NCBI RefSeq assembly: GCF_900067135.1
Contig: NZ_FJUR01000001.1
Location: forward strand, 2,483,501-2,547,500
Reading direction: 5' to 3'
DNA from: Rhizobium sp. 9140
GTDB taxonomy: Bacteria > Pseudomonadota > Alphaproteobacteria > Rhizobiales > Rhizobiaceae
DNA length: 64,000 nt
A program made the translations under genes and the position numbers. The notes beneath the pieces are model-generated. The model was not told where the DNA came from. It searched no databases and saw nothing but the letters and a program-made list of their open reading frames with translations. How positions within the stretch are numbered: the stretch's first letter is position 1; each line of letters begins with the position of its first letter. Positions 49,768 through 60,791 of this stretch are shown in pieces.

Positions 49768-50088
49768 TCAGGCCTGGCGTTCCGGCACATGAACGACGAG
49801 GCCGTCCAGCGCGTCGCTCATCTTGATCTGACAGCTCAGCCGCGAGGTGGGCCGGACGTCATAGGCGAAGTCCAGCATGTCCTCTTCCATGGCCTCCGGC
49901 GCGCCGACGGCTGCCGTCCACGCCTCGTCGATATAGACATGACAGGTGGCGCAGGCGCAGGCGCCGCCGCATTCCGCCTCAATGCCGGGCACGGAATTGC
50001 GAACCGCATTTTCCATAACGGTCGATCCGGTCTGGACCTCCAGCTCGTGGCGTGTGCCGTCAAAGGCGATGATGCTGAGTTTTGTCAT
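49768..50088 (-). CDS. Adrenodoxin-type [2Fe-2S] ferredoxin
   Basis: A 106-residue electron carrier. The cluster Cys follow C-x5-C-x2-C in [14 protein letters not shown] (residues 40-52; an extra Cys lies within the x5), with the fourth Cys in RLSCQI (near residue 86). The N-terminal strand [24 protein letters not shown] is typical of the adrenodoxin/FdxB class, as is the acidic [12 protein letters not shown] helix that contacts reductases and P450s. It is monocistronic. Partners cannot be deduced here. Confidence 0.93.
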
Positions 50089-50292: not shown

Positions 50293-50661
50293 CTACCGGC
50301 AGAGCTTGAGAATGAAGATTTCGGTATCGAGGACGGCGGACGAGAGTGCGGCGAGACTTTCGGAATCCTCAGGTCGCTCTTCCACGGACGCGGCGACATG
50401 GGCAACCGTGAAGGCGCCGACGGCCACTGCCGCACCCTTCAGCCGATGCGCGGCGGCCTTGCGGACCTCGGCATCCTCGACCAGCAGTTCCTTGACGATC
50501 TGCCGCGACTGGCGCGCGAAAATCTGCAGCACTTCAATCTCCAGCACCTTGTCGCCCATTGTCTGATTGGCGAGGTGGACGAGGTCGATCGGGCGTCCGC
50601 GGGAGTGAAGATGGCCAAGTGCCGTTTCGGGACTGTCGAAGGCGATATTGAGGGCGGCCAT
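50293..50661 (-). CDS. Stand-alone Hpt (histidine phosphotransfer) protein
   Basis: A 122-residue protein consisting of one Hpt domain. HLANQTMGDKVLEIEVLQIFARQSRQIVKELL forms the first helices. The phosphorylatable His is in AAHRLKGAAVAVGA (near residue 76; H-x-L-K-G-x-A). The last helices end at FILKLCR. Free Hpt proteins relay phosphate between hybrid kinases and response regulators. No kinase or regulator gene is adjacent; cckA at 36-38.5 kb is the only hybrid kinase in the window, but its known relay protein is ChpT. The ATG at 50661 fits the domain best. It is divergent from the giant coiled-coil gene. Confidence 0.85.
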   Translation of the reverse strand: MAALNIAFDSPETALGHLHSRGRPIDLVHLANQTMGDKVLEIEVLQIFARQSRQIVKELLVEDAEVRKAAAHRLKGAAVAVGAFTVAHVAASVEERPEDSESLAALSSAVLDTEIFILKLCR

Positions 50662-51254
50662 GCACGTTTTCCTTATTCTGTTTTCCAACGCTGCCGGCTC
50701 GTTGCGGGACATCCCGCGGGCTCGGAATCCGGGTGGCGATGCGGGACGTGAAGGTCGCGTGGCGTCGAACTGAAGCCCTGCGCACCCGGCCCGTCGCCGC
50801 ACTGCCGTCTCGTGTGGATTTCACAGCAGCCGGGCTGCTATCAGATGAAAACCGGGCGCAATCAGGGCGGCTTTTGTCAAGTATGGTTAACGAACGAAAA
50901 CATCCGGCATTGCAGGGCCTTCGCGCCGTCCCGGGGCTGAATTCCGTTAAGAACTTGTTAGCATTTTAACGAATGCCCCGGGGCGTTAATTGTAAGACTA
51001 TCCCGGATGTGTCACTACGATACGTTACAGGATATCGGTTTCCGCAAAGGACCCGGCATCCCTCCGGGAGGCCCTTCCCATGGCTGTGCGACCATGGGAA
51101 AAAGCATCACCGGTCGCGGTATGAAATTGGTGCGGTCATTGTATTGCGTGCATCCAATGCGCAGGAACTGTCCTCACCCCCGATCCGGCATTGTCGGCAG
51201 CCATGACAGCTGCGCGATGTCGAGACGGAAAGTTCGGTAACGAGGCGTATCTGC
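50662..51254. other. Control region between the Hpt gene and the giant gene
   Basis: 593 bases without a supportable gene. It holds four TTAA tetramers (50887, 50947, 50966, 50986) in a G+C-rich genome, including TTAA-N7-TTAG at 50947-50961, one base from the CtrA consensus. There is also a small hairpin, CCTCCGGGAGG-like, near 51062-51073. GAGG lies 9 bases before the ATG at 51255. Confidence 0.5.
50947..50961. promoter_or_regulatory. CtrA-like site upstream of the giant gene
   Basis: TTAA-GAACTTG-TTAG matches TTAA-N7-TTAA except at the last base, with further TTAA motifs nearby. It is about 300 bases from both flanking start codons. Confidence 0.35.
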
Positions 51255-54200
51255 ATGGCGACGAACAAGAGCAACGAGTCGATCGACGACAAGGCCTTCC
51301 AAGCGCTCGAAGACGCTTTGAGGATCGATTTCGACGAACTGAAGTCCGCGCTTAACGAGACCCCGCCGGAAGCCGGCCGCACGGCGCCGAAGCCCCAGAC
51401 CGGGGCAACCGCCGCAACGTCCCCCTCTCGTGCAGCCCCGTCCCGTGCAGCAGGGAGCGCGAAGCCTGCCCAGCCGGCTGCCGCGCCGAAGCCGGCAGCC
51501 CCGCCCCGCGCCGCCCAGCCTGTCGACGATCCGCTCGCCCCGCCGCGCAGCCTCGCGCCGGAACCGGTTCCGGCAGCCCCGGGCGCGAAATCGCCGACCT
51601 TCGCCCCCGCCAACGACGACAGCCGCCGCACCGCACCGGCCATGCTCCGCTCGCTCGAAGCCCGCTCAGCCCGGACCGCGATGCGCGGCGCCGCCATCCT
51701 GTCGCTGATCTGGATCGTCGCCGGCCTGGGGATCGCCAACCTGCTCTACGGCCCGGAAATCTGGCAGATCCGTTCGCTGGCAGCGCTTGCCGCCCTTCCC
51801 GGCGCCATCGTCGCCGCCATCTTCATCGTCCTCCCCGTCATGCTCTTCTTCGCCTTCGGCGTCATGATGGCGCGCGCGCAGGAAATGCGGAATGCCGCCC
51901 GCTCGATGACCGAGGTCGCCCTGCGTCTGGCGGAACCGGAAACCACCGCGTCCGACCGCATCATGACGGTCGGCCAGGCCGTCCGCCGCGAAGTCTCGGC
52001 CATGAACGAAGGGATCGAGCGCACGATCGCCCGCGCGACCGAGCTGGAAACCCTCGTCCATTCGGAAGTCAACGCGCTCGAGCGCAGCTACAGCGACAAC
52101 GAATTGCGGGTCCGCACCCTCGTGCAGGAACTCGGTCTGGAGCGTGAAGCGATCGTCGGCCATGCCGAGCGCATCCGCTCCTCCATCACCGGCGTTCACG
52201 CCCAGCTGCGCGACGACCTGACGAATGCCAGCGAAGACCTGCAGATGCGTCTTGCGACCTCGGGCGAGGCCGCGGCCTCGCTGATCGAGACCCGCGCCGC
52301 CGCGCTGATGGAGAAGTCGCAGGCCGCATCGCAGTCGATCAGCACGCTGCTCAGCACCCGCACCGATGCGCTCGTCAGCGGTCTGAACGCGGCCGGCGCC
52401 GATATCACCAGCGAGTTCGACACCCGTCTGGAAGCCCTGAACCACACACTTATCAAGCGCGGACAGCAGCTTCTCGGACAGTTCGAGACGCGCGCATCCA
52501 CGCTCGACAGCAACACCGAGAAGCTGAACGCCGCACTGAACGAGCGCGCCCGCCAGCTGAACGAGACGCTGATCGCCCGGACGCGCGACCTGAACGAGAG
52601 CCTCGTCGTCGGCCAGCAGGCCATCACCGGCGGCCTCGACGACATCCTCAACACGCTGAACGGCGCGCTGGACGAGAAGGGCGCAAGCTTCCGCCAGAAC
52701 CTGAAGACTGCGGCCGACGACGCCATCATGGATCTCGACCTGCGCTCCGGCTTCTTCGAGGAGAAGCTGCAGGGCACGGTCGGCCAGCTGGCCACCGCCT
52801 TCGACGGCCGCTTTCAGGATTTTGCCACCGCCTTCGAACGCCGCGCCGGCCTGCTGGATGCGAAGATGGCCGACAGCCTCTCGCGCATCGACCAGTCCGT
52901 GGCCGGCGGCTCCGACACGCTCGGCCGCCTGCTGGACGACGGGCTCGAAAAATTCCAGGCTGCCATCGGCGATCAGTCGCTGTCCATCGCCACCACGCTC
53001 GGCGCTTCGCAGGCGATGATCGAGGAAAGCATTTCCGCGCGCACCGGCGAGATGGACAGCGTGATCGGTCAGGCCCATGAGCGCATCGACACCGTTCTTG
53101 CCGCCCGTTCCGGCTCGCTGATGAGCGCCCTCACCGCCGCGCAGGACCGCATCGAGTCCGATTTCGCTGGGCGCGCCGACAGCATCGAGACAGCACTCGG
53201 CACCACCCAGGCACGCCTTGCCGAAACGCTCGATACCCGCACCGGCGCCCTCATGGAGGAGCTCGGCGCCTCCGAAACCCGCATCGGAGCTCTGCTCACC
53301 GAACGCACCGGCGTCGTCACATCTGCTCTGGAAACGACGGAGCGGCGTCTGTCGGAGGCCTTCGACAGCCGTAGCGAGCGCCTTCTCGGCGCGCTCGACG
53401 CGGCCCGGGGCAACATCGAGCAGGCGTTCGCCGCCCGCAGCGACGATGTCGCCACCGCCATCGGCAGCGCCGAGCAGCGGCTGCAGGAAACGCTGGACAG
53501 CCGCGCCCGCGGCCTGTTGCAGGGTCTCGATGCCGCACAGGATCGTATCGAGGGTTCGCTGAACGCGCGCGCCGACGACCTGGCGAGCACCATCGCAACC
53601 AGCCATCAGCGTCTCGACGACACGCTCTCCGACCGTACGTTGGAACTCTCCGTCATGCTGGCTGCCAGCACCGAAGCGCTCGACGGCGCGCTGGAAGGCA
53701 ATGCCGAACGGATCGATGGCATCATGGCGGCTCGTGCCGCGACGATCACCGAAACGCTGTCGAACAATGCAACGCGCATCGAAACCCTGATGAGCGACCG
53801 CGCCGGCGCGCTGGACGTCACCCTGTCGAATGCCGCCCGCACCATCGAAGGCGCCTTCACCGGCACGGCCGAGCGCATCGACGACATCATCAGCGAACGC
53901 ACCATGACGCTCTCAGGCGTGCTCGCGAGCTCCACCGCGGCACTCGAAGGCACTGCCGAGCAGATCGACAGCATGCTGACCGAGCGCACGCTCGAACTCT
54001 CGGGCGTCCTCGCCGGCACGACAGCCGGCATGGAAAGTCTGTTCGAAGGCACGACGGAACAGATCGACACGCTGCTCACACGCGGTATGGCGACCCTGTC
54101 GGAGACGCTGTCGGGCGCAACGCGCACGATCGATACCACTTTCGCCGGCACGACCGGTCGCATCGACGAGATCATGGCGGAGCGCACGACGCGCCTTGCC

Positions 54201-57200
54201 GGCGTCCTCGCAGGCTCCACGGCCGCCATTGAGGGCACCAGCGAGCAGATCGACCAGATCCTGTCGCGCGGCATAAACACCCTGAACAGCACGCTTGCCG
54301 ACGCCACGCGCAATCTCGACAACACCTTCGCGGGCAAGGCGGAGCGCATCGACGAGATCCTTACCGAGCGCACCATGACGCTCTCAGGCCTCCTCGCCTC
54401 CTCCACCGCCGGCATCGAAAGTGCCGTCGAAGGCACTGCCGAACAGATCGACCTCGTCCTCTCCCGCGGCACGACCAACCTCACCGGCGCCCTGTCGGAA
54501 GCGACCCGCTCGCTCGACACCACCTTCTCGGGCACCGTCGAGCGCATCGATGAGATCCTCACCGAGCGCACCATGACGCTCTCCGGCGTGCTGGCCTCCT
54601 CGACCGCCGGTATCGAAAGCGCCGTCGAAGGCACCGCAGAGCAGATCGACCAGATCCTGTCGCGCGGCACGAACACCCTCAACACCACACTGACTGACGC
54701 AACGCGCAACCTCGACAACACGTTCACGGGCAAGGCGGAGCGCATCGACGAGATCCTCACCGAGCGCACCATGACGCTCTCCGGCGTGCTGGCCTCCTCG
54801 ACCGCCGGCATCGAAAGCGCCGTCGAAGGTACCGCAGAAAAGATCGACCTCGTCCTATCCCGCGGCACGACCAACCTGACCAGCGCACTTTCGGACGCCA
54901 CCCGCACGCTGGACAATACCTTCTCGGGCACCGCCGAACGCATCGATGAGATCCTCACCGAGCGCACCATGACGCTCTCGGGTGTGCTCGCTTCCTCCAC
55001 CGCCGGCATCGAAAGTGCCGTCGAAGGCACTGCCGAACAGATCGACCTTGTTCTCTCCCGCGGCACGACCAACCTCACCGGCGCCCTCTCGGACGCCACC
55101 CGCACGCTGGACAACACCTTCTCGGGCACCGCCGAACGTATCGATGACATCCTCATCGAGCGCACGATGACGCTCTCCGGCGTGCTGGCCTCCTCCACCG
55201 CCGGGATCGAAAGTGCCGTCGAAGGCGCGGCCGAACAGATCGGCCGGATCCTCTCCTCGAACACGGACACGCTGGACGGCAAGCTCGCCGCGGCGACCCA
55301 GACGCTCGACCGGACGTTCGACGGCACAGCCGAGCGTATCGCAGACATCATGGCGGAACGCACCATGTCTCTCTCGGGCGTGCTGGCCTCCTCCACCGCG
55401 GGCATCGAGAGCGCCGTTGAGGGTACGGCCGAGCAGATCGACCGCGTTCTCTCCAGCGGCACGACGAACCTCACCGGCGCCTTGTCGGACGCCACCCGCG
55501 CGCTGGACAGCACCTTCTCGGGGACAGCCGAGCGCATTGACGAGATCCTCGTCGAGCGTACCATGACGCTCTCCGGCGTTCTCGCCTCCTCCACCGCCGG
55601 CATCGAAAGTGCCGTCGAAGGCACCGCCGAACAGATCGATCGCGTCCTTACCCGCGGTACCACCACGCTGACCGGCGCCCTGTCGGACGCGACCCGCGCG
55701 CTGGACGGCACTTTCTCTGGTACCGCCGAGCGCATCGACGAGATCATGATCGAGCGCACCATGTCGCTTTCCGGCGTGCTCGCCTCCTCGACCGCCGGCA
55801 TCGAAAGCGCTCTCGAAGGCACGTCCGAGCAGATCGACCAGGTCTTCGCGCAGCGCACGTCCAGCCTGTCGCAGACGCTCGACCAGGCAACCCGCACGCT
55901 CGACACGACCCTTTCCGGTTCGACGCGGGCGATAGACGAGGTTCTGTCGGAGCGGACCATGTCCCTTTCCGGCGTCCTGGCATCGTCCACGGCCGGCATC
56001 GAAAACGTCATCGAGGGCACCGCGGAGCAACTCGACACGCTGTTGGCCCGCGGCACCTCCGGCCTGTCGGCGACGCTGGCCGGCGCGACGACGATGCTGG
56101 ACGGCACGCTCGCCGGCTCTGCCGAGCGCATCGATGCGGTTCTCGCCGCCCGCGCCCGGGAACTCGCCGCCACCAGCTCCGCCATCGAAAGCGCCGTCGA
56201 AGGCAATGCCGACGACGTCAATGCGGTGCTCGTCCGCGGTGCCTCGAACATCAGAAGCACGCTTTCGGAAGCAACGCGCCAGCTCGACAAAGCGGTCTTG
56301 GGCACAGCCGGCCACCTGGACGAGATGCTTGCCACCCGCACATCGGCTCTGTCCGACGTCCTCACAGGTTCGACCGCGACGATCGAGAACGCCATTGACG
56401 GCACCACCGAGCGCCTCGATTTCCTGCTTGCCACCAGCGCGTCCAGCCTCGGCGACATGCTGAACGATGCGACCGGCTCCATCGAGCAGCGCGCAGCCAT
56501 TCTCTCCGGCTCGCTCTCCAGCGCCACGGACCGCATCGAGCGCGCGCTCGACGGCACCACCGTCCGCCTGGGCAGCATGATCGACGATCACGCCCGTGCG
56601 CTCGACGAAACGCTGACCGGTCAGACCGCAGCGCTCGACAACCGTCTCGCCGAACGCACGGACGACCTGTCGCGCATCCTCGTCGGCCGCGCGTCAGAAA
56701 TGGGCGACACGCTTGCCACACGCGTCGAGGATATCGCCGACCAGCTCTCCTTCCGCGCGAGCACCATCGCCGAGACGATGACCGACCGCATCGGTGAGAT
56801 CGACCGCGACCTCACGGCCCGCACCGTCGGCATCGCCGAGGACATGACCGGCCGCGTCAATGCCATCGCCGGCACCATGACCGGTGCTACCGGCGAGATC
56901 GCCGGCGCCCTCTCCGCCCACGCGGCCGAACTGGCCGCCGCCATCGACACCCGCGCCGGCGCGATCGAGCAGACCCTTTCGGCCCGCGCCGCCAGCCTCG
57001 ACCAGACGATGTCCACGACGGAAGACCGTCTGCGCATTGTGCTCGACACCCGCATCGACGCCCTGAATACCGCAGTCGCCGATGGGTCCACCCAGCTCTC
57101 CGACATGCTGAACGATCAGGCGGCAACCATCGCCACCACGATCGCCGCCAGCGCCGGCATGCTGGAGATGACGCTCGAGGAACGCCAGGAGGCGCTCGCC

Positions 57201-60200
57201 CGCACGATCGACCAGAGCGCGGAAGCGCTCGACAACCGCCTGCGCGACAGCGCCGCCCGCGTGACCGTCCGCCTCGGCGACACCACGGCCGAACTGGCCC
57301 GTGCGGCCGATGGCCTGGCCGAGCGCATGGACACCTCGATCACGGGAATAAACACCCGCTTCGACGAAACCGGTGCCCGCATCGAGGCGAGCCTCGGCCA
57401 TCTCGAAACACGCATCCGCGACAGCGTCGGCAGTGTCGACACGCTGGTGAATGACGCCGGCAACCGCATCGCGGGCACGCTGTCCGAACGCGTCTCGGAA
57501 CTCGACCATGCCAGCCGCACCGCCGCCGAGCGCATTTCCGGCAGCCTTGCCGGCCGCACCGAAGAAATCGCCCGTATCAGCAGCGAAGCCGCGACCCGCA
57601 TCGCCGAAACGCTGGCCTCGCGCACCGGCGAACTCGACCGGATCAGCAGCGAAGCGGCAAGCCGGATCGAATCGACCATCGAGCGTGGCACAGGCCGCAT
57701 CGAGGAGCGGCTCGGCACCATGGATCGCGCCCTCAATGTCGGCCTCGACAATGTCAGCCGCACGATCGAAGGCAAGGCGGCCCATCTCGTCGGCAGCCTG
57801 CGCAGCGCCGTCTCCGACACCACGCAGGATATCGACGCCGAAGCCGTTCGGTCCTCGGACACGCTCGCCAAGGTCGGTGGCGACTTTGCGGAAGCCATGG
57901 CCGCTCGCCAGGCCGATTTCCAGAACGCCATCGAGCGCACCGCGGCCACGGCTGCCATGCGCAGCGCGGAACTCGCCCGCAGCGTCGGCGAAGCCGCCGA
58001 TGCGGCCCTCATCCGCGCTTCCGAAACGCAAACCCGCATCTCCGAACAGGGCAACGCGCTGCAGCGCAACCTCTCCGAGGTCGAAAAGGCACTGGAAGCG
58101 CGCGGCGAAGCCATCCGCACCACGCTCGACGAGCGCACCCGCGATCTCAATTCCATGCTGTCCGGCCGCACCAGCGAATTGTCACGCCTCATCGACGAGC
58201 AGGCCCGCCCGGTCGTGGAAACCTACGTCGCCGCCGGCCGCGATGCGGCAGATCGCCTGACCGCCGCCGCCCGCGACGGTGCCGAGCGTCTGCGCGCCGA
58301 AAACGACGCCCTCGTCACCGCTCTGTCCGCCCGCACCGGCGAACAGCTTGGTGCCATATCGCAGCGCGCCGAGGAAACCGCCCGGGCGATCCAGATGGTC
58401 GAGAACCGCCTGCAATCGACAGCGGAAGCGTTGATCGAGCGCCTTTCCACCAGCAACGCCGCCATTGCCGGCGTGGTCGAGGAAGCCACAAGCACCTTCG
58501 GCGCCATGAATGAGCGTCTGAATGCCACCGGCGACCGCTTTTCCGAAACCGCCGAGCGGACATCCGACATGCTGTCGGCCTCCACCCGCCTTCTCGAAGG
58601 GAAGGCCGACCGGCTGGTCGCGATCTCGTCCAGCACGCTTTCGCAGGTCGGCAGCCTCGTCGGCCGCTTCGAGGATCACTCGCGCATGCTCGGCCAGGCC
58701 TCCGATCTGCTGGCGGCCGCACAGTCCAACCTTGCCGGCACGCTCGAAGAGCGCCAGGAAGCCCTGCGCACGCTCTCCGTCGGCCTCGTCAGCCGCTCGG
58801 AAGACATCGAACGCACCATGCGGGCGCTAGAGGGCTTCGTGGAAGGCTCGTTCCAGCGCGCCGAAGACCGATCCAACCAGATCGCCGGCAACCTGCGCAG
58901 CGGCATCCAGGCCTCCTTCAGTGATGTCGGCCGCATCCTCACCGATGCGGAAGAGCGCACGCAGACGGCGGCAAACGCCATGCGCGATGCGCTGGCCCAT
59001 GCCGGCCAGGATGCCGAGCAGTCGGTCGATCAGCTCCTGGCCCGCACGGAAGAGCGCTCCGGCCAGGTCGCAGGGACCCTGCGCGACGGCGTCCAGCGCG
59101 CCATTTCCGATGTCGATCGCACGCTTGCCGACGCGGAAACCCGCACCCGCACCGCCGGCGAGGCGATGCGTGACGCCATTGCCGCGGCAACCGATACCGC
59201 CGGCGCTTCCGTCGATCGCACCTTCGCCCGTGCGGAAGATCGTGCCGGCGAAGTGGCCGCCCGCCTGCGCGGCAGTGTCGGTGCCTCGCTCTCCGAAATC
59301 GACGGCCTGCTCGACGAGACGGGCAAGCGGTCCGACGCGGTATCCGAAAAGATGCGCGAGCAGATCCGCCAGTCCGTCGATGAAGCGATCTCCCGCTTTG
59401 CCGGCGCCACCGACGAGATCCGCCGCTCCGGCGAGGAGATCCGTCGCGAACTCGACATGACCCGCGCCGAACTGAAGCGCGGTGCCTTCGACCTGCCGGA
59501 AGAAGCCAAGGAAAATGCGGCCGTCATGCGCCGCGCCGTGTCCGAGCAGATCAAGGCCCTGCAGGAACTGTCCGACATCGTCGGCCGCTCCTCCAGCCAG
59601 CTCGAAATCGGCGAACCGACACCGCATCGCGGCCGCATGGCAACGCAGGCCGCTCAGCCGGCCTATGCCCCGGCCCAGCCCTCTTATGCTGCAGCTCCGG
59701 CAGCCGTTGCCGCCGCACCCGCAGGCAATCCGTACCAGCAGCCATACCCGGCGGCCCCCACCACGCTGCTCGGCGCCCGTGCAGCGGAAGCAGCACCGGC
59801 CCGAACGGTCGTAACGACCGAGGCTTCGGCCATGCCGCAACGCCACCCGGCGCCGGTCTCGGCTGCCCCGGCACAGCCACGCCCCGCGCCGGCTGCGGCC
59901 CGGGCACCGCAGGGAATGGCTGCGCAACCCGCACCGATCCAGACTGCTCCGGTTCAGACGGCCCGTCCTCAGCCGACGCCGCCCCAGTCCGTCCAACCCC
60001 AGTCCGTCCAACCCCAGTCCGTCCAGCCCCAGCCGACACAAGCACCTGCCCAGGCGGCCGCACGTCCAGAGCCGGAAGCACCGCAGACCGCCGCACCATC
60101 GGCTCAGCCGCAGAGAGCCGCACGGCCGCCACAGGAGCCCGGCGCTCATCAGCGGCCCGCAGCCGCCGCCGAGACCCCGCTGCGCGGCAGCGTCGGCATT

Positions 60201-60791
60201 GCCGATCGCTCGCCGCTCCGCCAGGCCTCCGCTGCCGAAGACGACATGCGTGAAGGCGGTTCCGGCTGGATGCGCGATCTCCTGCGCGGAGCCTCCCGCG
60301 AGGACGAGCCGCAGCAGATCGCGCCGGCCCGTCTGCGGCCCGAGGCGGCACCTGCGCCCACAACACAGGTCTCCCCGACCCAGGCCTCACCGACCCAGGC
60401 CTCACCGACACAGGCCTCCCGCAGCACCGACAGTCGCAACCCGCGCCACGTCATGGAATCGCTGAACTCGCTTTCGGTCGATATCGCCCGTGCGATCGAT
60501 CATGATGCGTCGGTCGATCTCTGGCGCCGCTACCAGCGTGGAGAGCGCGACGTGTTCACGCGCCGCCTCTACACGCTGAAGGGTCAGCAGACCTTCGACG
60601 AGATCCAGCGGAAATACGACCGCGAAGCGGAATTCCGCACCGCTGTCGATCGCTACATCGCCGATTTCGAACAGCTGCTGGCGGATGTTGCCCGCAACGA
60701 CCGAGACCGTGTGATCACCCAGACATATCTGACCTCGGACACGGGCAAGGTCTACACCATGCTCGCCCACGCCGCCGGCCGCTTCAGCTAA
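51255..60791 (+). CDS. Giant membrane-anchored hendecad coiled-coil protein, GPR/RgsE-like polar growth scaffold
   Basis: 3,178 residues. Residues 1-35 form a short acidic helix and 35-130 are Pro/Ala-rich. Two membrane helices (about 146-166 and 179-204) put both ends on the same side, presumably the cytoplasm. Residues about 205-2788 form an almost unbroken helix of 11-residue repeats, with hydrophobic residues at positions 3 and 7 and small ones at 11. Nine exact 66-residue units span 1030-1623. Residues 2789-3055 are a Pro/Gln/Ala linker, and 3056-3178 a charged C-terminal domain (DLWRRYQRGERD, YLTSDTGKVYTML). Architecture and lineage match Agrobacterium Growth Pole Ring protein (apolipoprotein-like; about 2,100 residues as I recall) and Sinorhizobium RgsE. 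Homology is inferred, not searched. No catalytic motif is present. A strong terminator follows. Confidence 0.85.
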   Translation: MATNKSNESIDDKAFQALEDALRIDFDELKSALNETPPEAGRTAPKPQTGATAATSPSRAAPSRAAGSAKPAQPAAAPKPAAPPRAAQPVDDPLAPPRSLAPEPVPAAPGAKSPTFAPANDDSRRTAPAMLRSLEARSARTAMRGAAILSLIWIVAGLGIANLLYGPEIWQIRSLAALAALPGAIVAAIFIVLPVMLFFAFGVMMARAQEMRNAARSMTEVALRLAEPETTASDRIMTVGQAVRREVSAMNEGIERTIARATELETLVHSEVNALERSYSDNELRVRTLVQELGLEREAIVGHAERIRSSITGVHAQLRDDLTNASEDLQMRLATSGEAAASLIETRAAALMEKSQAASQSISTLLSTRTDALVSGLNAAGADITSEFDTRLEALNHTLIKRGQQLLGQFETRASTLDSNTEKLNAALNERARQLNETLIARTRDLNESLVVGQQAITGGLDDILNTLNGALDEKGASFRQNLKTAADDAIMDLDLRSGFFEEKLQGTVGQLATAFDGRFQDFATAFERRAGLLDAKMADSLSRIDQSVAGGSDTLGRLLDDGLEKFQAAIGDQSLSIATTLGASQAMIEESISARTGEMDSVIGQAHERIDTVLAARSGSLMSALTAAQDRIESDFAGRADSIETALGTTQARLAETLDTRTGALMEELGASETRIGALLTERTGVVTSALETTERRLSEAFDSRSERLLGALDAARGNIEQAFAARSDDVATAIGSAEQRLQETLDSRARGLLQGLDAAQDRIEGSLNARADDLASTIATSHQRLDDTLSDRTLELSVMLAASTEALDGALEGNAERIDGIMAARAATITETLSNNATRIETLMSDRAGALDVTLSNAARTIEGAFTGTAERIDDIISERTMTLSGVLASSTAALEGTAEQIDSMLTERTLELSGVLAGTTAGMESLFEGTTEQIDTLLTRGMATLSETLSGATRTIDTTFAGTTGRIDEIMAERTTRLAGVLAGSTAAIEGTSEQIDQILSRGINTLNSTLADATRNLDNTFAGKAERIDEILTERTMTLSGLLASSTAGIESAVEGTAEQIDLVLSRGTTNLTGALSEATRSLDTTFSGTVERIDEILTERTMTLSGVLASSTAGIESAVEGTAEQIDQILSRGTNTLNTTLTDATRNLDNTFTGKAERIDEILTERTMTLSGVLASSTAGIESAVEGTAEKIDLVLSRGTTNLTSALSDATRTLDNTFSGTAERIDEILTERTMTLSGVLASSTAGIESAVEGTAEQIDLVLSRGTTNLTGALSDATRTLDNTFSGTAERIDDILIERTMTLSGVLASSTAGIESAVEGAAEQIGRILSSNTDTLDGKLAAATQTLDRTFDGTAERIADIMAERTMSLSGVLASSTAGIESAVEGTAEQIDRVLSSGTTNLTGALSDATRALDSTFSGTAERIDEILVERTMTLSGVLASSTAGIESAVEGTAEQIDRVLTRGTTTLTGALSDATRALDGTFSGTAERIDEIMIERTMSLSGVLASSTAGIESALEGTSEQIDQVFAQRTSSLSQTLDQATRTLDTTLSGSTRAIDEVLSERTMSLSGVLASSTAGIENVIEGTAEQLDTLLARGTSGLSATLAGATTMLDGTLAGSAERIDAVLAARARELAATSSAIESAVEGNADDVNAVLVRGASNIRSTLSEATRQLDKAVLGTAGHLDEMLATRTSALSDVLTGSTATIENAIDGTTERLDFLLATSASSLGDMLNDATGSIEQRAAILSGSLSSATDRIERALDGTTVRLGSMIDDHARALDETLTGQTAALDNRLAERTDDLSRILVGRASEMGDTLATRVEDIADQLSFRASTIAETMTDRIGEIDRDLTARTVGIAEDMTGRVNAIAGTMTGATGEIAGALSAHAAELAAAIDTRAGAIEQTLSARAASLDQTMSTTEDRLRIVLDTRIDALNTAVADGSTQLSDMLNDQAATIATTIAASAGMLEMTLEERQEALARTIDQSAEALDNRLRDSAARVTVRLGDTTAELARAADGLAERMDTSITGINTRFDETGARIEASLGHLETRIRDSVGSVDTLVNDAGNRIAGTLSERVSELDHASRTAAERISGSLAGRTEEIARISSEAATRIAETLASRTGELDRISSEAASRIESTIERGTGRIEERLGTMDRALNVGLDNVSRTIEGKAAHLVGSLRSAVSDTTQDIDAEAVRSSDTLAKVGGDFAEAMAARQADFQNAIERTAATAAMRSAELARSVGEAADAALIRASETQTRISEQGNALQRNLSEVEKALEARGEAIRTTLDERTRDLNSMLSGRTSELSRLIDEQARPVVETYVAAGRDAADRLTAAARDGAERLRAENDALVTALSARTGEQLGAISQRAEETARAIQMVENRLQSTAEALIERLSTSNAAIAGVVEEATSTFGAMNERLNATGDRFSETAERTSDMLSASTRLLEGKADRLVAISSSTLSQVGSLVGRFEDHSRMLGQASDLLAAAQSNLAGTLEERQEALRTLSVGLVSRSEDIERTMRALEGFVEGSFQRAEDRSNQIAGNLRSGIQASFSDVGRILTDAEERTQTAANAMRDALAHAGQDAEQSVDQLLARTEERSGQVAGTLRDGVQRAISDVDRTLADAETRTRTAGEAMRDAIAAATDTAGASVDRTFARAEDRAGEVAARLRGSVGASLSEIDGLLDETGKRSDAVSEKMREQIRQSVDEAISRFAGATDEIRRSGEEIRRELDMTRAELKRGAFDLPEEAKENAAVMRRAVSEQIKALQELSDIVGRSSSQLEIGEPTPHRGRMATQAAQPAYAPAQPSYAAAPAAVAAAPAGNPYQQPYPAAPTTLLGARAAEAAPARTVVTTEASAMPQRHPAPVSAAPAQPRPAPAAARAPQGMAAQPAPIQTAPVQTARPQPTPPQSVQPQSVQPQSVQPQPTQAPAQAAARPEPEAPQTAAPSAQPQRAARPPQEPGAHQRPAAAAETPLRGSVGIADRSPLRQASAAEDDMREGGSGWMRDLLRGASREDEPQQIAPARLRPEAAPAPTTQVSPTQASPTQASPTQASRSTDSRNPRHVMESLNSLSVDIARAIDHDASVDLWRRYQRGERDVFTRRLYTLKGQQTFDEIQRKYDREAEFRTAVDRYIADFEQLLADVARNDRDRVITQTYLTSDTGKVYTMLAHAAGRFS
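54342..56123 (+). repeat. Nine tandem 198-bp (66-codon) repeats inside the giant gene
   Basis: The E-R-I-D codons recur exactly every 198 bases: 54342, 54540, 54738, 54936, 55134, 55332, 55530, 55728, 55926 and 56124. Each unit is six hendecads, e.g. ERIDEILTERT / MTLSGVLASST / AGIESAVEGTA / EQIDLVLSRGT / TNLTGALSDAT / RTLDNTFSGTA. Adjacent units share long near-identical DNA. A tenth, divergent unit follows. Confidence 0.92.
59982..60026 (+). repeat. 15-bp tandem repeat in the linker (PQSVQ)
   Basis: CCCCAGTCCGTCCAA occurs three times (59982, 59997, 60012), the last with one change, encoding repeated PQSVQ in the disordered linker. Confidence 0.85.
60371..60415 (+). repeat. 15-bp tandem repeat in the linker (SPTQA)
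   Basis: CTCACCGACCCAGGC-type units at 60371, 60386 and 60401 differ by one or two bases and encode repeated SPTQA just before the C-terminal domain. Confidence 0.85.

Follow-up and report, generated by a model that had tools for sequence, protein, structure and literature searches.

By sequence comparison, the product of the open reading frame at positions 51255–60791 (forward strand) of the window, a 64,000-nucleotide stretch of the Rhizobium sp. 9140 genome, is an orthologue of the growth-pole scaffold GPR/RgsE and a long member of this known family. In Agrobacterium and S. meliloti, GPR/RgsE is described as localising to the growing pole, in a ring or a focus, with a role in polar growth (PMC8262873, PMC7327166), and it is reported to organise the growth of bacteria that are described as having no MreB (PMC8546619). 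Published descriptions also include the membrane anchoring of RgsE (PMC7327166, PMC8262873) and, for GPR, a 200-nm ring of six foci, the loss of rod shape on depletion and a requirement for the C-terminus (PMC8262873, PMC7327166). The open frame and its 3,178-residue product are present as initially annotated, and the two membrane helices placed near the N-terminus coincide with hydropathy peaks; the bulk of the protein lies C-terminal to these peaks, in a topology predicted from sequence. The protein is organised as follows.

51255–60791, forward strand: GPR/RgsE orthologue, 3,178 residues, from the open-frame listing and homology
51627–52094, forward strand: conserved N-terminal domain, residues 125–280, with two hydrophobic helices inside
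51690–51746, forward strand: hydrophobic helix, residues 146–164, a hydropathy peak
51807–51863, forward strand: hydrophobic helix, residues 185–203, a hydropathy peak
52092–59486, forward strand: hendecad rod, residues 280–2744, alpha-helical by sequence, from periodicity and hendecad parse
54300–55839, forward strand: tandem repeat array within the rod, 198-bp unit equal to 66 residues or six hendecads
59508–60434, forward strand: Pro/Ala/Gln-rich linker, residues 2752–3060, presumably disordered, from sequence composition
60435–60788, forward strand: conserved C-terminal domain, residues 3061–3178, from homology

The N-terminal domain (155 residues) was found in 40 and the C-terminal domain in all of 41 genomes, the genome under study included; in two of these, the C-terminal domain is recovered as two pieces of one locus. 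The profile alignments of the two domains contain 33 rows each. Within the family, 294 of 297 genomes carry the C-terminal domain, and searches with either domain reveal a single GPR locus in the 5.43-Mb genome of the strain. The matching protein of S. meliloti strain Ak57 (CP090106.1, 2044121–2050390) is 2,089 residues long, which is also the printed length of RgsE (PMC7327166). RgsE (SMc00190) is 76% identical to the window protein over residues 125–280 and 87% identical over residues 3050–3178. The global alignment (59.0% identity, 2,073 aligned residues) is free of gaps over residues 125–620 and 2100–2745 of the window protein; most of the approximately 1,105 unaligned residues fall between positions 620 and 2100, where RgsE lacks 914 of approximately 1,480 residues, and about 160 more are in the linker. 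Homologues from A. arsenijevicii (2,115 residues, 52% global identity) and A. tumefaciens CNPSo 675 (2,183 residues, 51%) both show 69% identity in the N-terminal and 84% in the C-terminal domain. At the rod end, 254 of the 316 residues in 2430–2745 and 312 of the 331 in 2100–2430 are aligned in the Agrobacterium comparisons; the rod ends are therefore fully collinear with RgsE but not with the two Agrobacterium homologues. The initial annotation had likened the architecture of the protein to that of GPR, with a length about half again as great. Both end domains are similar in the two genera, and 3,178 residues correspond to 1.50 times the printed GPR length of 2,115 (PMC8262873).

Gene order is shared with S. 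meliloti as well, and runs YcjX, DUF697 (YcjF-type), FolK, FolP, DUF922, ferredoxin, Hpt, GPR, cytochrome c1 and cytochrome b. End-domain identity, the alignment to RgsE and this common neighbourhood are the grounds for the assignment to GPR/RgsE. Of ten flanking frames in the first set compared with Pfam, eight had no match, and several are evident chance frames. Agrobacterium GPR (Atu1348), as described for strain C58, has in common with the window protein two N-terminal membrane helices, a PF01442-type helical body, a Pro-rich low-complexity stretch and an essential C-terminus (PMC8262873); the window protein differs in its greater length and in its 198-bp repeat array.

Some database entries for these genes call for care. 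In CP090106.1, the gene for S. meliloti RgsE bears the annotation 'kinesin'. This 3.72-Mb record has the title 'plasmid pSymB' but includes housekeeping genes, and looks like a mislabelled chromosome. Opposite the rod, the reverse strand of the window contains open frames of 990 (53606–56578), 646 (51666–53606) and 578 (54855–56591) residues, and in two homologous loci (G017 and G019) the antisense frame is longer than the GPR frame. GC-rich repeats most likely give rise to such frames, which are a trap for gene finders. Homologue frames were chosen by homology, since choosing the longest frame returned the antisense one in G017 and G019. In one genome (G014), the N- and C-terminal domains are found on different contigs (C32 and C30), which is what assemblies broken at repeat arrays would give; database lengths of such genes may be wrong.

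The rod consists of 2,465 residues, of which 39 are aromatic and only one is a proline; it contains no cysteine. Over residues 230–2800, the periodicity of I, L, V, M and F has a power of 62.5 at the exact period of 11/3, the maximum among 300 shuffles at the same period being 5.3. A heptad coiled coil is rejected, as power at period 3.5 is 0.8. A fine scan of the same region gave a best period of 3.661 (power 155; the shuffles refer to the fixed 11/3 period), and the array (residues 1016–1530) gave 3.667. Parsing by dynamic programming divided the rod into 218 hendecads that cover 2,398 of the 2,465 residues; the phase slips 10 times, in 7 cases by 7 residues. The parse score of 519 compares with 275 for the best of 30 shuffles. 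Hydrophobic residues (ILVMF) occupy position 3 in 88% and position 7 in 87% of the hendecads, and position 11 is A, T, S or G in 75%; the mean values in the shuffles are 35%, 36% and 62%, respectively. The 11-residue period, the hydrophobic positions 3 and 7, the small residue at position 11 and the extension of hendecads well beyond the repeat array are thus borne out. The initial figure of about 2,580 consecutive hendecad residues stands in substance, as hendecads lie far above the shuffles, but is slightly high: 2,398 residues are covered, and the last part of the rod (residues 2380–2680, period 3.607) is not clean hendecad. The array contains 7.8 copies of the 198-bp unit, and nine successive units are 62–90% identical in DNA (eight of the nine, 69–90%). 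At 1.5 angstrom per residue, the extended rod would reach approximately 370 nm by arithmetic.

The rod varies extensively in length. Among the matches listed in the family search, the longest open frame has 3,392 codons (G134) and that of the window, with 3,194, is second; the frame of G010 has 1,236, so that members of the family lie more than 2,000 codons apart. In the genus of the window, all seven genomes encode long forms (2,584–3,178 residues), which differ by up to 594 residues. A quick tree was built from 125 rows of joined N- and C-terminal domains; 48 of its 122 inner branches are weakly supported, and many branches are long. On this tree, the 18 proteins of at least 2,500 residues require 7 changes, and at least 5 as judged by starred branches, compared with 17.2 in shuffles. 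Given these 5 to 7 changes or more, lengthening has very likely recurred in several lineages.

Changes in length tend to preserve the hendecad register. Where the rods of the window protein and five close congeners differ by indels of at least 5 residues, these are always 66 or 198 residues long; a sixth, more distant congener shows many rod indels of other sizes as well. Rod length was taken between two fixed anchors in 97 of 125 proteins, the 28 without one or both anchors being left out. In 28 of 39 greedily chosen independent pairs with a non-zero difference, the difference in rod length is divisible by 11 (3.5 expected), and in 34 of the 39 it is 0, 4 or 7 modulo 11. In contrast, linker length differs by a multiple of 11 in none of the same 39 pairs, which argues that register-keeping steps are favoured in the rod. 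Multiples of 7 occur at chance level among rod-length differences in the table of all pairs. Great length does not depend on clean hendecads, as five homologues with frames of more than 2,500 codons (G086, G050, G148, G238 and G021), all outside the 97 proteins measured, have periods of 3.60–3.62.

We think it probable that the protein is a membrane-anchored growth-pole scaffold, with a coiled-coil hendecad rod, a spacer in the middle of the rod and a C-terminal domain that recruits partners at the new pole. The two N-terminal helices would anchor it in the inner membrane, and a continuous helical rod with a hendecad hydrophobic stripe would extend into the cytoplasm and oligomerise along the stripe as a slightly right-handed coiled coil. 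The disordered Pro-rich linker would present the conserved C-terminal domain, which would bring factors for growth or polarity to the new pole. The middle of the rod would serve as a spacer of free length. Recombination between repeats that are in phase would alter it, and the steps that survive would mostly be register-keeping ones (11, less often 4 or 7). The MreB model PF06723 matches three frames of 651, 459 and 490 codons with 52.3, 35.6 and 19.7 bits, the first two above the cut-off of 27. The sizes of these frames suggest DnaK/FtsA-type relatives rather than MreB, consistent with polar growth.

The surface of the rod has been interpreted differently in Agrobacterium, where the GPR helices are read as apolipoprotein domains (PMC8262873). 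According to that proposal, the rod would bind lipid along its surface and organise the synthesis of membrane at the growing pole; its hendecad pattern would then be an amphipathic one. Profile matches agree with it: PF01442 (apolipoprotein A1/A4/E), the family printed for GPR (PMC8262873), scores 301.8 bits in 12 stretches, above the curated Pfam gathering cut-off of 90, and the ApoLp-III model reaches 37.1 bits (cut-off 36.3). Lipid binding would also account for the defects described on deletion of A-IV-like regions of GPR (PMC8262873). However, the window protein is far longer than apolipoproteins and lacks their proline punctuation, with its one proline in 2,465 residues. The stripe at positions 3, 7 and 11 is narrow, occupying only about three positions in eleven, and combines L/I with T/A, the Thr/Ala being at position 11; the rod is acidic (net charge −156), with 20 lysines against 218 arginines. 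In our reading, stripe and charge are more in keeping with a coiled coil than with a lipid-binding helix of class A, and from these features together with the register rule we infer oligomerisation as a coiled coil; the lipid-binding alternative seems unlikely. The match of the tail part of the ZorA (Zorya defence) model to rod residues 1272–1544 was also considered and rejected as a sign of a ZorA-like motor tail, as it scores 67.3 bits against an NCBIfam cut-off of 190 and its best stretch covers model positions 347–618 only. It most likely reflects the shared periodicity of coiled-coil sequences, and loose annotation could take such rods for ZorA defence proteins.

The length of the rod could instead be a molecular ruler that sets the ring-to-tip distance or cell width, with long forms accompanying a different pole geometry. 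That all seven genomes of the genus encode long forms, and that long forms cluster on the tree (7 changes versus 17.2 in shuffles), would fit. Yet very close relatives differ by whole 66-residue units, and the differences within the genus and the family detailed above, up to 594 residues and more than 2,000 codons, are hard to reconcile with a fixed measure, so that a ruler appears quite improbable and the middle of the rod would rather be a spacer. A neutral origin of the array is a possibility to which we give somewhat more weight while still doubting it: length would drift as far as an unbroken helical stripe allows, and the long form would have no function beyond those of the short one. 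The units, 62–90% identical in DNA, and a copy number that varies among congeners are what drift would leave. The recurrence of long forms in several lineages speaks against it, although drift could also give recurrence. The fact that rod length changes mostly in register-keeping steps argues that the continuous hydrophobic stripe is what is selected.

The hendecad period is not found across the whole class. The 97 measured rods have periods of 3.649–3.667, whereas 19 homologues from other orders, with rods cut at fixed distances from the protein ends, have periods of 3.562–3.623; 18 of these frames have 727–1,221 codons and one has 2,000. The twentieth class locus, which comes from the order of the window, has a period of 3.663, and the shortest Hyphomicrobiales forms (845–1,236 codons) range from 3.598 to 3.679. 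In view of this contrast, the hendecad rod seems characteristic of the order Hyphomicrobiales, as inferred from comparison without ancestral reconstruction. The C-terminal domain extends further: among 240 genomes sampled from the class, 91 match its profile. Sixteen of the 20 class loci read more widely (for other orders alone, 15 of 19) match the N-terminal domain (E below 1e-3) and have between one and three hydrophobic peaks. No Pfam match at 0.01 was found for 31 of 33 members of the C-terminal domain, and the other two are marginal (E 0.0019 and 0.0096); against the PDB, its profile returned four weak rows (best E 0.045) and no solved structure. One genome (G430, contig C61, 29629–29979) has a C-terminal domain match with one in-frame TAA, either a broken gene or an assembly error. 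Three others have two matches each instead of the usual one (G545, contigs C74 and C39; G413, C393 and C392; G335, C53 and C3), possibly paralogues, contamination or split genes.

TipN of Caulobacter consists of two membrane helices plus a coiled coil. This polar landmark of 882 residues is much shorter than the window protein, and its layout resembles that of the short homologues from other orders. GPR has been called 'similar' or 'analogous' to TipN in published texts (PMC13170164, PMC8546619).

Upstream of the GPR gene, and divergent from it, lies a gene for a single-domain Hpt protein. The features on this side are listed below.

49768–50088, reverse strand: 2Fe-2S ferredoxin gene, a neighbour conserved within the order
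50293–50661, reverse strand: divergent single-domain Hpt protein (PF01627), 122 residues, start as in S. meliloti, frame extending to 50802
50662–51254, no strand: Hpt–GPR intergenic region
50947–50961, within the intergenic region: CtrA-like box TTAA-N7-TTAG

The Hpt protein of the window carries the phospho-acceptor motif HRLKG and scores 28.7 bits with PF01627, compared with 37.1 for that of S. meliloti. In a set of 130 loci, mostly Rhizobiaceae, the Hpt gene is divergently upstream of GPR in 125 (121 of 126 without four duplicate genomes). No Hpt gene was found beside GPR in G011, G012 and G022; the other two misses are G032 and G027 (contig edge, short stretch). The acceptor histidine is kept in 105 of the 125 copies and replaced in 20, namely in Ciceribacter or relatives (L097, L098, L114, L142 and L149), in Peteryoungia (L107 and L151) and in 13 other loci. 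To judge from the sequence, these copies may be non-catalytic binding proteins.

The Hpt gene is found with GPR over a wide range. Of 19 wider loci, each from a different genus of the order, 15 contain Hpt and 17 contain ferredoxin, which is thus as persistent at this level. In the 20 class loci, chosen blind to their neighbours, Hpt is adjacent in 9 (8 of the 19 outside the order) and not a neighbour in 11, and ferredoxin is adjacent in 2 (1 of 19). A class-wide Hpt profile, of whose 17 adjacent genomes described below 8 (G000 included) are themselves rows and nine are not, matches 118 of 240 genomes, many through Hpt domains of large kinase-like frames. In the best 23 of the 118 (to E 2.1e-20, a chosen cut), the gene is adjacent and divergent to GPR in 17; in the other six, it is 10 kb off (one), on another contig (three), 1.5 Mb away (one) or in a genome without the C-terminal domain (one). 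The 11 rows that follow include no case adjacent to GPR. Outside the order, Sphingomonas parapaucimobilis has an Hpt-like neighbour that lacks the acceptor histidine and falls below the Pfam cut-off; the scaffold protein of this species is matched by the C-terminal domain (E 1.5e-24) and not by the N-terminal domain.

Between the Hpt core and the GPR start, the motif TTAA-N7-TTAA is present in 115 of 120 loci when one mismatch is allowed (shuffles preserving base composition only: mean 15.7, maximum 24) and exactly in 25 (0.8 in shuffles); the printed CtrA consensus is TTAA-N7-TTAAC (PMC7200025). Most of these boxes (186 of 213) lie 250–400 bases before the GPR start, and TTAACCAT is present in 97 of the 120 loci. 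Control pairs at spacing 7 occur in 53 (AATT), 12 (ATAT) and 7 (TATA) loci. CtrA control of the Hpt–GPR region is a likely reading. However, exact TTAA-N6-TTAA is found in 72 loci, more than the exact N7 form, and TTAA pairs with one mismatch occur at spacings of 4, 5, 6 and 8 in 50, 66, 97 and 41 of the 120; since TTAA pairs are so common at other spacings, another TTAA-binding factor or plain AT-richness is a possible explanation. In its main text, the S. meliloti CtrA paper does not name this gene region by locus number (PMC4433202).

Three findings go beyond what is described for the GPR/RgsE family: the step-wise changes in rod length, the Hpt gene next door and the TTAA boxes. None of them was found in open-licence main texts. 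No paper in that literature was found to link Hpt with GPR, or to mention hendecads in GPR/RgsE, and the main texts of PMC7327166 and PMC8262873 contain neither Hpt, nor CtrA, nor hendecad. The widely conserved part of the protein is the C-terminal domain rather than the long body, and among the neighbours checked Hpt is the one that persists furthest. We tentatively propose, as an idea with less than an even chance of being right, that scaffold and divergent Hpt form an ancient alphaproteobacterial phosphorelay–scaffold module. CtrA would switch both genes through a promoter region that they share, and the Hpt protein would bind or act at the scaffold, coupling cell-cycle signalling to the site of wall growth; the Hyphomicrobiales would then have lengthened the scaffold in hendecad steps. 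Counting against such a module are the 20 copies with a replaced acceptor histidine, the loci without an Hpt neighbour (G011, G012, G022 and 11 of the 20 class loci) and the equal persistence of ferredoxin within the order. The Hpt neighbour is a candidate link of cell-cycle signalling to polar growth.
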